A stretch of DNA of 64,000 nucleotides. Origin: Bacteriovorax stolpii (GTDB lineage: Bacteria > Bdellovibrionota > UBA2428). The stretch lies in NCBI GenBank assembly GCA_945881775.1, contig CAMCVE010000002.1, positions 50,001 through 114,000 on the forward strand. Reading direction: 5' to 3'. A model generated the notes under the pieces. That model made no database searches and had not been told where the DNA came from. It was given only the letters and a program-made list of their open reading frames with translations. The translations under genes were made by a program, and so were the position numbers. Numbering within the stretch: the stretch's first letter is position 1; the number at the start of each line of letters is the position of its first letter. Shown here in pieces: positions 43,120 to 48,176 of this stretch.

Positions 43120-44460
43120 TTAAAATTCTTGGGAAAATTTCAAACGCATCGCCCATTCGTTCTCGGTGAAGGCGACGTAGAAGCGCGTGAGAAAGCTTCG
43201 GTTCCAGACCACATCGAGGCCCGAAGCCAGGGACCAAGCAAAGAGGCGGCTCAGCAGTCCTCCGTCGATTGCCAGAGGCATAATTGCGAGATCGCCCCGC
43301 AAACCAACGATTCGAAATTCGTTTTGATGCACACGTAGCTCGAGTGATTCGAGAAACTTGAAGTCTTCGTGGAACCTGCCTCCGGTGTAGGCTTTGAGAA
43401 TTCCCGATCCTGAAACGTCGCGGATCGGGTCGATGCCGCCGACACCCGCCCGTTCCCAGAAAGGGCTGTTGCCTACAAGGCCGTCCATCGTGAGGCGGTG
43501 CGCGAGCGTCCAGCGACCTCGGCTTTGGTAGCGGCGGTCGATGAGAGTGAAGCGATACGAAAACTTTTTGGGATCGGACTCGAGCATGCCCACTGTCGCC
43601 CCGAGCTCGAGAGCGCCCCCGCTGCGAGTGAGCGTTTCCGTGGGGCGAGTGTCGAAGTAAAGACCGAAGCCCGCTGAGCGAAAGGTGCCTCCTTGGTAAG
43701 CCTCGGGTTTGAGATTGAAGAGCAGCGAGTTGGTAGGGCTCTCAAAAGGGTTGTTGCGCGCCCGCGAGTAGTCATAGGAGCCGTAGAGGCCGAAGCTACG
43801 ATCATCGACGCTTCTGAGTGGGAGTAGAAGCGTGCCGCCCGCCGCGGTCTCGTTGATCGAGTAGCGCTTGTCCTCGTCGGGGCGTTTGCTGAAAACGAAA
43901 GAGTCGGGTCCTTCACCTGTGTAACGAAACTCAGTGCTGCGCGCATAAGAGGCGCGTAGCTTCACGCGAGGACGGACGAAGCCGAGTTCGATTTGTGGCA
44001 CGTCGACGCCCACGGCTGCGATCCACTGGGCCGAATCAGAGCGAATAACTTGGGTGTTGATGATGTAGAGAAACGGGTTCTGGCGCGAGATGTTGGTGAG
44101 GCGCGCGCGGAACCCTCCAAAAAACCCTGAATCAGGTTTTGAGTACATCAGCGGGAAAATTTGGACGAGACACGGATCCCCGAAGCAAGTGAGGTTTCGC
44201 TTTTGCGCCACTTCTTTGACGCTGTCGGAAATTTCCTTGGAGAGCGTTTTGATTTCGTTCACCAGGCCAGGTTTGGGGGCGATGCCGCCCTGGTCGATCG
44301 CCTGGACGTCGGAAAGCTCGGGGTATTGGCCCCGAGGGAAGTACGCGTCATAGGAGCTATTCGCGTTTGCAAAGGGAATTTGGGACACCAAAAATGCCGC
44401 GATGCAGAGAGGCCGGATCGCGTCAGAAGCTTGGCGGCAAAAAACCATGGATGCCTTCAT
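43120..44460 (-). CDS. Omp85-like outer-membrane beta-barrel (surface-antigen domain, no clear POTRA)
   Basis: This 446-residue protein (from ATG 44460) has a signal sequence (MVFCRQASDAIRPLCIAAFL to FANANS) and a C-terminal barrel of about 350 residues resembling the Omp85/BamA surface-antigen fold. Visible are GFGLYFDTRPTETLTRSGG, LKAYTGGRFHEDFKFLESLE (an Omp85-like VRGF position) and the final FSQEF. POTRA domains normally precede the barrel; only about 90 residues lie before it, so at most one could fit. The frame runs to 44616, but that would overlap the divergent mlaE. Likely roles are protein or lipid insertion at the outer membrane. Confidence 0.6.
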   Translation of the reverse strand: MKASMVFCRQASDAIRPLCIAAFLVSQIPFANANSSYDAYFPRGQYPELSDVQAIDQGGIAPKPGLVNEIKTLSKEISDSVKEVAQKRNLTCFGDPCLVQIFPLMYSKPDSGFFGGFRARLTNISRQNPFLYIINTQVIRSDSAQWIAAVGVDVPQIELGFVRPRVKLRASYARSTEFRYTGEGPDSFVFSKRPDEDKRYSINETAAGGTLLLPLRSVDDRSFGLYGSYDYSRARNNPFESPTNSLLFNLKPEAYQGGTFRSAGFGLYFDTRPTETLTRSGGALELGATVGMLESDPKKFSYRFTLIDRRYQSRGRWTLAHRLTMDGLVGNSPFWERAGVGGIDPIRDVSGSGILKAYTGGRFHEDFKFLESLELRVHQNEFRIVGLRGDLAIMPLAIDGGLLSRLFAWSLASGLDVVWNRSFLTRFYVAFTENEWAMRLKFSQEF

Positions 44461-44482
44461 CTTATCTTCGAAAAGTTCCGAA

Positions 44483-45277
44483 ATGGAGAAGGTGAATCCT
44501 TCATTCGCGACTTTTTTTACGAGCTTTGTCGAGGAGCTTTTTGCTTCCGTCGTGCGTGACCGCGTGCTGACCCGCGGGGACGTCCGTCGCGTGATCGCTC
44601 GGCAGGTAAGATTCACAGGCCAGCAGGCCCTGCGTCTGGTGGCGGTGGCGGCGACTTTTGTTGGTCTTATGACCGTCGCGCAAAGCGCTGCGCAACTTCA
44701 ACGTTTCGGGGGCTCACAGGCACTCGGGCCGCTGCTTGTCGCTGCAATTTTCCGCGAACTCGGACCCTTGCTCACAGCGCTCATTGTGATCTCGAGGTCG
44801 GTGTCGGCTGTGGCTTCGGAGCTCTCTTCGATGAAAGCCAACGGTGAGATCGAAATGCTCAAGGCCTCGGGGATTTCGCCGCTCAGCTATCTCGTGTTCC
44901 CGCGTGTGGCTGGGGGAGCCTTGGCTCTGACGTTTCTCACCATGCATTTTGTGTGGATTGCGCTCGCGGTGGGTTTTGGCGTCGCCCAATTTTTTGTGGT
45001 CCTGCCATGGAACCGCTTCCTCGTGGATCTTCTCAATGCCCTCGGGCCTGTGGATATCCTGATTTTTCTGGTGAAGACGCTAGGGACAGGATTTGTGGTT
45101 TTTAGTCTTGCGTGTTTTTACGGACTTCGCATTTCCGGTCGCCATTATGAAATTCCGCAGGCCACAACGCAGGCTGTCGTCGCGTCTTTCCTCATGGCGT
45201 TCGGCCTTCAGATCTGTCTTTCCGTCATTTACTACATGAGTCTCGCGCAGCGCTGGGGAATCGGAGGGCTCATGTGA
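44483..45277 (+). CDS. mlaE: MlaE-type ABC permease (MCE system)
   Basis: This 264-residue membrane protein matches the MlaE family: FRELGPLLTALIVISRSVSAVASELSSMKANGEIEMLKASGI holds the EQ-loop/coupling-type motif, and several spans follow with TLGTGFVVFSLACFYGLRISG. MlaE pumps or exchanges phospholipids with an MCE protein. ATG 44483 is chosen since the divergent barrel gene begins at 44460; an earlier ATG at 44447 is possible. Its stop overlaps the next start as TGATG, so coupling to the ATPase-like protein is strong. Confidence 0.9.
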   Translation: MEKVNPSFATFFTSFVEELFASVVRDRVLTRGDVRRVIARQVRFTGQQALRLVAVAATFVGLMTVAQSAAQLQRFGGSQALGPLLVAAIFRELGPLLTALIVISRSVSAVASELSSMKANGEIEMLKASGISPLSYLVFPRVAGGALALTFLTMHFVWIALAVGFGVAQFFVVLPWNRFLVDLLNALGPVDILIFLVKTLGTGFVVFSLACFYGLRISGRHYEIPQATTQAVVASFLMAFGLQICLSVIYYMSLAQRWGIGGLM

Positions 45278-46101
45278 TGGCCAAGATTTTGTGGCAGGGG
45301 CATAATCTCGAACTCCGCGCGCGCAGCAGTGCTTTGTGCCGAATGCCGGACTTCGATATCAAATCCGGAGAACGTGTGGCGCTCCTGGGCTCAAACCGCG
45401 ACTTCCGCCAGGCTCTATTTAGATCGATGGCGGGTCTTAGTGCTCCCTTATCGGGACGATTGAGTGTCGATGGGGAAGATCTTCCTCTACGTAACGAGCG
45501 CAATCCGTGGTGCGATTTGTTCTCAAAGAAATTGCGACGAAAAATTGGTGTCAGTCTCGAGAGTGAAGGACTTCTTTCAAATGTGAGCGTGCGCGAATCG
45601 CTGGAAACACTATTCCGTTTCAAATATGGCGACCACAACTCGGGACTTGTCGAAGGGGCGAGTCGAGTCGTTGAAGAGACTGCATTGCGTGTGGGTCTCG
45701 AAGCGAGCGCACTCAATAAGCGCCCTTCGGAACTGGGTCGCCTCGAGTTGCGTTTGGCTTCGCTCTGTTTGGCGTTTCTCACGAAGCCCGTGATTCTGCT
45801 CATGGAGAATCCTTCGCAGGGTCTGCATGATCGCGGTTGGCAGGCGCTCTCTGAAACACTCGAGCAAATTCTTGAGGGTTCTCAACGAACCTTGGTGATG
45901 GATACCGACGACTGGTTGCTTGCGAAACGACATGCTTCTCGCTGGATCGTGTTTGAAGGTGAGCGCGTGATTTACGATGGAAGTCCCGAGGGCTACATGG
46001 CTCAAGGGGGTGAAGCGTTGCTTACAGAATTGGAATCCGAGCGGTGGCATGCCTGTCGCGCTTGGATCGAAGAACTCAGAAAGAATTTGGGTGCTGCATG
46101 A
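45277..46101 (+). CDS. MlaF-position ABC protein with all ATPase motifs degenerate
   Basis: This 274-residue protein sits where MlaF, the ATPase of MCE systems, should be and keeps its fold (FDIKSGERVALLG ... PVILLMENPSQGLHDRG). The working residues have changed. Walker A reads GSNRDFRQA (38-46) instead of GPSGxGKTT, so the Lys is Arg44. The Q-loop Gln is Glu95. The LSGG signature is LGRLE (153-157). Walker B DE is Glu177-Asn178. The H-loop His is Asp211. No frameshift is present. It cannot bind and hydrolyse ATP by the normal mechanism. It may be a structural or regulatory partner, or rely on another ATPase. The MlaD start overlaps its stop. Confidence 0.8.
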   Translation: MAKILWQGHNLELRARSSALCRMPDFDIKSGERVALLGSNRDFRQALFRSMAGLSAPLSGRLSVDGEDLPLRNERNPWCDLFSKKLRRKIGVSLESEGLLSNVSVRESLETLFRFKYGDHNSGLVEGASRVVEETALRVGLEASALNKRPSELGRLELRLASLCLAFLTKPVILLMENPSQGLHDRGWQALSETLEQILEGSQRTLVMDTDDWLLAKRHASRWIVFEGERVIYDGSPEGYMAQGGEALLTELESERWHACRAWIEELRKNLGAA

Positions 46102-46982
46102 AAGAAAATCGAACACTATGGATCTTCAGCCTTTCGGCCTCGCTGCTTTTCGGGACGATGGTTTTTGGGGCGGCTTGGCGCCAAGGGTGGTTCCTGCCCA
46201 GAGAATCCTTCACCGTGCGTTTCCCGACTGCGAACGGACTTTTTGTAGGAACTCCCGTCTTGCTCACGGGTCTCAAAGTCGGTGAAGTGAAATCTGTCGA
46301 TCTCGACGAGGAAGGCCGCGTCGAAGTCGGTGTCAGTGTGCTGAGTAAGTACGCGGCACAGTTGCATGAAGACGCGACCGCAACTTCGGAACGCACCTTT
46401 GTCATCGGCGAAAAAATCATCGCTCTTTCACCCGGATCTCGAGACCGGGCAGTTCTGAAGCCAGGGTCAGAGCTTCTTGGGCACGAAACGATGGAAATCA
46501 CCGACCTCCTGAGCGGAGGCCACATGACACAGTATTTTGAAACCTTTCAGTTGCTTATGGACCAGTTGAAAGTGCTCGTAGGTGCCGCAGGAGGAAAGGG
46601 TCAGGATCTCGCTTCTCTGTACTCCCAACTTCACCGGAGTCTTGTGGGAATCGAAAACCTCGCCAAAGACGTGCGCACTCTTCGTACGGACGTGCTCGGC
46701 ACGAATGAAACAAAACTTCTGCTTTCGAATCTCTCTAAGTCGAGTCGCGAAATGGAATCCGTTATGAGCGAACTCAACAAGGCCCTGCCTCGTCTGAACT
46801 CGATGTCAGGAGAGTTCCAAGAGACTCTGCCGACTTTTGCCAAGGCGCTCAAAGAGAGTGTGGTGACTTTGCAGGCGATGCAGCGCAGTTTTCTGCTTCG
46901 TGGTGGCGTGAAAGAGGTGCGCGAGGAGCAAGAAGCGCGTACCCCAGCGTCGGCTTCGGATTCAAAACCCGACTCCCCTTGA
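46098..46982 (+). CDS. mlaD: MlaD-type MCE substrate-binding protein
   Basis: This 294-residue protein starts MKENRTLWIFSLSASLLFG, an N-terminal anchor, then an MCE domain (ESFTVRFPTANGLFVGTPV, LTGLKVGEVKSVDLD). A long helical C-terminal part (residues 150-270) resembles those that hexamerise or form tunnels in MCE proteins. MCE rings carry lipids between membranes. ATG 46098 is chosen because it overlaps the upstream stop as ATGA and gives the canonical anchor. A LolC/E-type permease follows after 33 bases. Confidence 0.9.
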   Translation: MKENRTLWIFSLSASLLFGTMVFGAAWRQGWFLPRESFTVRFPTANGLFVGTPVLLTGLKVGEVKSVDLDEEGRVEVGVSVLSKYAAQLHEDATATSERTFVIGEKIIALSPGSRDRAVLKPGSELLGHETMEITDLLSGGHMTQYFETFQLLMDQLKVLVGAAGGKGQDLASLYSQLHRSLVGIENLAKDVRTLRTDVLGTNETKLLLSNLSKSSREMESVMSELNKALPRLNSMSGEFQETLPTFAKALKESVVTLQAMQRSFLLRGGVKEVREEQEARTPASASDSKPDSP

Positions 46983-47015: not shown

Positions 47016-48176
47016 ATGAAAGGCTCCTGGATTTGGCTTCTCGCAAAACGACATCTGTCAGGTAAGGCTTCGCGCCCTGCCGTAAGGTGGATGAACCTCT
47101 TTGCCTTCCTTGGCCTGTCGCTTTCCGTGTTTGCCTGGGTGAGTATTCTCTCGATCATGTCGGGCATGCAGAACCAAATCCGCGAAAAGATTCTCCTCGA
47201 AAAACCTCATCTACTATGGGAGGGCCGTCCTCGATCCGGCGCTGAGTCGCTGCTTGCAAGCATTCGCCTTGAAGCGGGCTCTGATCTGAAGCGTGTCGAA
47301 ACCTATTTGCGCTCCGAAGCTTTGGTGGAACGACTTGGCCCCGAAGACGGGACCGACGCCGAGCCTGTCGCAATCGGACGTCAGCGCGGAGCTGTGCTCG
47401 AAGGACGCGATGAGGTCCTAGGCGATCGGGCTGACGTGGGCGTCGAGCTCGCTTCTCAGCTTGAGGCTGGTCCCGGAGATCGCCTGCGTGTTCGATCGGC
47501 GTGGGCTCTTGAACAGTTTCCGTTGCGTTTCCAGGTTACGAGTCTTTTCGAGTCGGGGCTTTACGAAATGGACAAAACGCTCATTCGCGTTTCTAGGCGC
47601 ACTTTGGGAGAGTGGTTGGGGCTGGAAGACGCGTTTTCGTTTGTTTCGATTCAACTCCACGACCCTGAGCAAAGCGAAGTTTTGCGTGCTCGCTTGAGTC
47701 AGAAACTGGGACTTCAGCTCAAATCATGGCAGGAGGCCGACGCTGCGCTTTGGTATTCACTAAAAATGGAAAAGACCGTCATGAGTCTAGCGGTGTTTTT
47801 TGTGGTGCTTCTCTCGAGTTTTGCTCTCTATATGGCCATGTCGGTTCGATTGGCGGAGAAGAGTCGAGAGATGGCCTTGCTCCGGGGTCTTGGGGCGACG
47901 CGCGAGCAATTGCAGAGACTTTTTCTCATCGAAGGCGCTTTGCTGGGACTTGTGGCTGTTCTTGTGGGGGCGCTAGGCTCCTTCGTTTTCTGCAAGTTGG
48001 TGTCGGGCTGGGTCGAGCTTCCCTCGTTCTACTACTCGACCTCAATTCCTGTGAGTTGGAGTTGGGCTCGAACCGGAATTTTGGGCGCGACGGTGCTTTT
48101 GCTGGCCCTCGTGTCGACATGGCTTCCGGTGCGACGCGGCTTCTCGTTCTCAGTCGCCGAAACCCTTCGCTCCTAG
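47016..48176 (+). CDS. LolC/LolE-type (MacB-like) ABC permease
   Basis: This 386-residue membrane protein has one N-terminal span, a periplasmic domain of about 210 residues, then three spans (from about 260), the LolC/E/MacB layout. The region KSREMALLRGLGATREQLQRLFLIEGALLGLVAV is the characteristic FtsX-like coupling block. LolC/E extract lipoproteins from the inner membrane with LolD. No LolD ATPase lies here. A GGGGG ribosome site precedes ATG 47016; a TTG at 46998 is possible. Placement after mlaD suggests an envelope lipid or lipoprotein role. Confidence 0.85.
   Translation: MKGSWIWLLAKRHLSGKASRPAVRWMNLFAFLGLSLSVFAWVSILSIMSGMQNQIREKILLEKPHLLWEGRPRSGAESLLASIRLEAGSDLKRVETYLRSEALVERLGPEDGTDAEPVAIGRQRGAVLEGRDEVLGDRADVGVELASQLEAGPGDRLRVRSAWALEQFPLRFQVTSLFESGLYEMDKTLIRVSRRTLGEWLGLEDAFSFVSIQLHDPEQSEVLRARLSQKLGLQLKSWQEADAALWYSLKMEKTVMSLAVFFVVLLSSFALYMAMSVRLAEKSREMALLRGLGATREQLQRLFLIEGALLGLVAVLVGALGSFVFCKLVSGWVELPSFYYSTSIPVSWSWARTGILGATVLLLALVSTWLPVRRGFSFSVAETLRS

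Follow-up and report, generated by a model that had tools for sequence, protein, structure and literature searches.

Within the 64,000-nucleotide stretch of Bacteriovorax stolpii DNA analysed here (the window), an operon of the MlaE-MlaF-MlaD type encodes a nucleotide-binding domain (NBD) protein that stands in the MlaF position and has no intact ATPase motif. On balance we favour, by a little, the reading that this locus is an MCE lipid transporter with a pseudo-ATPase NBD, in which the NBD would serve as a scaffold and the complex as an ATP-independent conduit. The wider proposition, on which we are about evenly divided, is that an ABC-type MCE transporter found across the phylum gave up ATP hydrolysis by stepwise loss, its NBD being kept in a structural or gating role and its permease changing to match. 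In these bacteria membrane lipid movement probably proceeds without ATP, or ATP is used in another manner. The features of the locus are collected in the table.

Features of the degenerate mlaEFD locus (positions in the window)
Feature	Position	Strand	Remarks
mlaE, MCE-system permease of the degenerate-NBD clade	44483..45277	+	PF02405, E 5.8e-51; clade by tree
pseudo-mlaF, MlaF-type NBD with zero intact ATPase motifs	45277..46101	+	274 aa, frame intact
Former Walker A, GSNRDFRQA	45388..45414	+	Lys to Arg, Ser to Gln
Former Q-loop, LES (within SLES)	45556..45564	+	Gln to Glu; acidic in 68/82 relatives
GLLSNVSVRE, best conserved block of the family, just past the Q-loop	45568..45597	+	Asn102 in 82/83 degenerate NBDs
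Former ABC signature, LGRLE	45733..45747	+	Alignment with canonical MlaF
Former Walker B, ILLMEN (ILLMENP)	45793..45810	+	Asp to Glu, catalytic Glu to Asn
Former H-loop His, now Asp (DTDD)	45907..45909	+	His missing in 82/82 aligned relatives
mlaD, MCE-domain protein	46098..46982	+	PF02470, E 5.7e-16; orthologues in G001 and G002
LolC/E-like permease without adjoining LolD	47016..48176	+	TIGR02212, E 4.7e-42, below family cut-off; synteny

The MlaE permease and the MCE-domain protein share the operon with the NBD. The ATG of pseudo-mlaF has one base in common with the stop codon of mlaE (TGATGG), and the mlaD start overlaps the pseudo-mlaF stop by four bases (ATGA); the start of mlaE itself is ambiguous (ATG at 44483 or GTG at 44492). 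The coordinates and the Pfam matches of the flanking genes agree with the original prediction, made from the letters alone, of an intact frame in the MlaF position with stop-start overlaps on both sides. Pfam recognized in pseudo-MlaF only ABC_tran (33 bits, E 8.6e-8). Divergent to the operon lies a gene for an Omp85-like outer-membrane protein (43120-44616, minus strand; NF047779, below cut-off), and a similar-looking gene occupies the same position in G001 (L045:9923-11236).

The motifs of pseudo-MlaF were read by alignment to a canonical MlaF from the same genome, and this confirmed that every catalytic motif (Walker A, Q-loop, signature, Walker B and H-loop) is changed. None of the marks of an active ABC-type ATPase, namely Walker A GxxGxGK[S/T], the Walker B Asp/Glu, an LSGGQ-type signature, the Q-loop Gln and the H-loop His, is present in the window family, and the D-loop of pseudo-MlaF reads QGLH, with His for Asp. 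The fold is kept, as had been supposed: besides the Pfam match, the AlphaFold model, built from an alignment of three rows and with a mean pLDDT of 82, retained it, and Foldseek searches with the model gave similar E-values across many ABC ATPases, the top TM-score among the 50 matches listed (0.72) belonging to the E. coli MlaF chains of 6xgz. In E. coli MlaF, K47R abolishes the ATPase, and complementation fails with this variant as well as with K47A and E170Q (PMC5016091, PMC7367683); the window protein combines a K47R-type with an E170-type change.

Orthologues of the pseudo-NBD were found in two of three relatives from the same family (f1), both of other genera (35 and 38% identity; one is Bacteriovoracaceae bacterium UBA2428), while the third, a genome 66% complete, gave no match of orthologue strength. 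Both are degenerate at every motif, with GTAKSGRKL and GPEHGGRAM for Walker A, LENP for Walker B in both, and Glu and Asp, respectively, at the H-loop; the Walker A change of Lys to Arg and the Walker B EN are common to all three genera. Around mlaE and the NBD gene, G001 resembles the window in carrying a sigma factor, an HNH gene, ssb and an Omp85-like or similar barrel gene. Its orthologous mlaD has relocated to another contig, where it adjoins the orthologous LolC/E gene, and a loss of mlaD from G001 was discarded since the two moved together. Between these genera synonymous sites are saturated, third codon positions differ most and second positions least (3 > 1 > 2), and protein identity over aligned codons is 38-43%. 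Because the frame persists beside mlaE in three genera despite this saturation, and two substitutions are exactly shared, the data support a selected pseudo-ATPase, as originally proposed, and relatives carry identical or equivalent losses. Sequencing error was rejected, the losses being present in three separate assemblies, as was strain-specific decay, given the orthologues in two other genera and the dN/dS values in relatives described below. Thus neither of the observations named beforehand as refuting, substitutions private to one strain and a dN/dS near 1, was made.

The original proposal missed that the degenerate state is phylum-wide and graded. A profile of three f1 MlaE proteins was run over 291 sampled genomes of the phylum, to which the clade counts refer, and loci were taken down to about 120 bits. 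In all MlaE loci fetched an NBD gene adjoins mlaE, and mlaD comes next in nearly all, mostly with overlaps of a few bases. Counted with L190 (see below), at least 83 of these genomes carry the degenerate clade, and in 82 members, drawn from 17 families, an open NBD frame adjoins mlaE. Among these 82 aligned NBDs the switch His is never kept (0/82), and the Q-loop Gln (3/82; Asp in 55, Glu in 13), the SGG signature (6/82) and the Walker B Glu (13/82; Asp in 52, Asn in 12) are seldom kept. The Walker B Asp persists in 73 and the Walker A Lys in 59, the latter having been lost about ten times (a quick tree requires at least ten state changes). Five members, three from the window family plus L164 and L166, lack all of Lys, Asp, Glu, Gln and His. 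By its motifs the window protein is the extreme state of a graded series. At the other end, five members from family f8 retain more motifs, two of them keeping Lys, Gln and Glu, and therefore some clade members need not be inactive. Within f6, matches of clade strength occur in the genomes of genus g41 and are absent from those of genus g9. The scan beyond the phylum was a single one; an Acidobacteria locus (L053), which is outside all counts, showed no ABC ATPase frame in its ORF listing.

As a control, the NBDs beside MlaE proteins outside the clade assignment were inspected, and 45 of 46 keep the motifs. The single degenerate one, L190, has an MlaE that groups with the clade in a careful tree, and a clade created by the score cut-off was rejected on these grounds. 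Four loci with canonical NBDs (L174, L175, L177 and L178; 124-132 bits, outside the 82) served as outgroup. In the MlaE tree degenerate and canonical loci fell on the two sides of one branch (support 100/100, and all 200 bootstrap trees), the bootstrap not being fully settled and some rows, L190 included, having long branches. Since the window NBD has an overall identity of 15-23% to canonical and degenerate NBDs, which does not tell which are closer, its kinship rests on MlaE, the operon and shared derived residues. The window protein belongs to the clade by its MlaE, has lost the H-loop His and carries the GL[LI]xN block.

Where it could be measured, selection on the NBD was shown from the codon comparisons to be purifying. 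In f6 pairs with measurable dS, NBD dN/dS was 0.007-0.03 in most and 0.047 at maximum, similar to MlaE, and one f8 pair gave 0.107. At equal MlaE divergence, degenerate NBDs diverge faster than canonical ones (identity 0.36 vs 0.52) and constraint is therefore relaxed; by this evidence the catalytic constraint is gone from the clade NBD and another remains. The best-kept residues include Pro150, Gly60, Asn102, Leu99 and Gly98, the last three in the block past the Q-loop, and both canonical NBD references have another residue in place of Asn102. The segment after the Q-loop is where ABC NBDs contact the coupling helix of the permease, and the GLLSNVSVRE block would thus sit at this contact. On the permease side (residues numbered from the start at 44492), Glu119 and Pro222 are present in 82/82 clade MlaE proteins, the canonical ones having Gln (47/49) and Gly (49/49), respectively; Glu220 is likewise found in 82/82 and Asn117 in 76/82. 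The stretch around residue 119 is presumably the coupling helix. Because the NBD block is well conserved and these MlaE residues are fixed in the clade, the two sides of the NBD-permease contact appear to have been rebuilt and then kept.

We propose that catalysis was lost first and nucleotide binding later and repeatedly, an order suggested by the counts. The NBD would stay in place as a scaffold, docked at the coupling helix of MlaE; in relatives bearing Walker A, ATP might be held as a structural or gating ligand with no turnover, and in the window family even this holding would be gone. MlaE-MlaD would let phospholipids pass between the membranes with no ATP hydrolysis at the complex, driven by lipid gradients or by an outer-membrane partner. 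PqiAB and LetAB must likewise work in this way, as their inner-membrane proteins PqiA and LetA lack an ATPase domain (PMC12436622).

The retention of the Walker A Lys and Walker B Asp in most members would be unexpected if ATP were irrelevant, and suggests that the NBD could instead be an ATP-binding switch that gates the lipid channel with no or very slow turnover, the window family having lost this regulation secondarily. We consider this unlikely, since it is inapplicable to the window protein, which has neither Lys nor Asp, and the roughly ten losses show that Lys is dispensable.

Other sources of ATPase were sought in the same genome, as the original prediction had advised. Two full mlaEFD operons with intact MlaF motifs lie elsewhere, and a LolD-like ATPase (below the family cut-off) is encoded beside a second LolC/E and bamA. 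It had been claimed that no working ATPase is near the locus and that its LolC/E lacks a LolD. Both hold locally, the LolC/E being a conserved neighbour without LolD, but neither extends to the genome, and a LolD-less genome was rejected; we infer that the window LolC/E may work with the distant LolD-like ATPase. Neither mlaB nor mlaC was seen next to the operon. Of the partners known from the retrograde Mla pathway, MlaA and MlaC, the genome (95% complete) has one MlaC-like gene elsewhere and no MlaA match. In G175, a 99% complete assembly of 360 contigs, the degenerate MlaE is the sole MlaE.

Gene order around the operon was also compared, with names given by reading the sequences. In a core clade (f6, f11, f21 and f27, with single families) the genes run small beta-barrel protein, RidA-like, YdcF-like, MlaE, pseudo-MlaF, MlaD, often a small gene, and LolC/E, some members missing some of these. 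The window has the LolC/E and not the upstream set, and the f8 members read are without the core-clade neighbours. The conserved upstream genes (small beta-barrel, RidA-like, YdcF/ElyC-like; L180:3328-4783, L123, L145) are possible candidate partners of the lipid conduit.

A second MCE system of the phylum (L042:5232-6652 in G000:C8, L049, L050, L013, L016 and L022) pairs two NBD genes and, in G000 and G001, also has two MlaE genes. One of its NBDs is intact and the other has the switch His changed to Asn (TN for SH) in 6/6 loci read, with a DD Walker B in 4/6; it resembles a heteromeric MlaEF transporter in which one site is degenerate. A solitary mlaD-like gene, without mlaE or NBD and followed by a probable outer-membrane protein gene, is kept in two genera (G000:C9, L044:6819-8551, and G001:C67, L204), and the one in G000 may serve the two-NBD system.

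Such a system, and the two intact mlaEFD operons of the window genome, would fit a transporter energized in trans, in which an intact MlaF encoded by another operon joins the pseudo-NBD or takes its place, giving an asymmetric ABC complex with one working site. This is doubtful, however: without signature and Walker motifs in the pseudo-NBD, a heterodimer would have damage at both composite sites, and G175 lacks a second MlaE. The clade-specific coupling-helix residues of MlaE also speak against it. Hydrolysis at a non-canonical site, for example with DD for DE, would be consistent with the Asp that replaces Glu in 52 of the 82 NBDs, but we judge it very improbable in view of the loss of His in all 82 and of Gln in 79, the changes of Lys, Asp and Glu in the window protein, and the inactivity of E. 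coli K47R. Neutral decay of a dying MlaF whose frame is not yet broken would explain why these NBDs diverge faster than canonical ones do and is hardly credible, being already contradicted by the 82-member motif counts with open frames beside mlaE in 17 families, a dN/dS far below 1 and near-invariant residues.

The clade offers a natural series from nearly intact to fully dead NBDs, with the permease altered in step, in which the ATP requirement of each part of the transport cycle can be examined. The role of the NBD in MCE transporters and the direction of Mla lipid transport are still debated. If the phylum is, as it appears, that of Bdellovibrio, an ATP-independent lipid conduit would be placed among predatory bacteria, and how these supply their envelope with lipids as they grow is of interest. 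A literature search, with most subscription papers and preprints outside its reach, returned no paper on this operon.

As in the MlaFEDB system of E. coli, the permease, NBD and MCE protein are encoded together and the NBD fold is shared; unlike it, the window locus has all ATPase motifs changed and clade-specific fixed MlaE residues, no mlaB or mlaC was seen beside it, and the 95% complete genome gave no match to MlaA. TAP, TM287/288 and CFTR are ABC transporters with a conserved catalytic loss in an NBD whose dimer nevertheless retains one active site, whereas in the window operon the single NBD has lost all motifs and its homodimer would have no intact site. Mycobacterial Mce systems share the ATPase MceG, their MCE operons standing apart from it without an NBD gene; the window operon is likewise separated from a working ATPase but keeps a broken NBD gene. 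Finally, PqiABC and LetAB (YebST) are MCE systems with an ATPase-free inner-membrane protein (PMC12436622), and the window locus differs from them in that theirs consist of PqiA or LetA with multi-MCE-domain proteins, whereas here an MlaE permease is accompanied by a pseudo-NBD.
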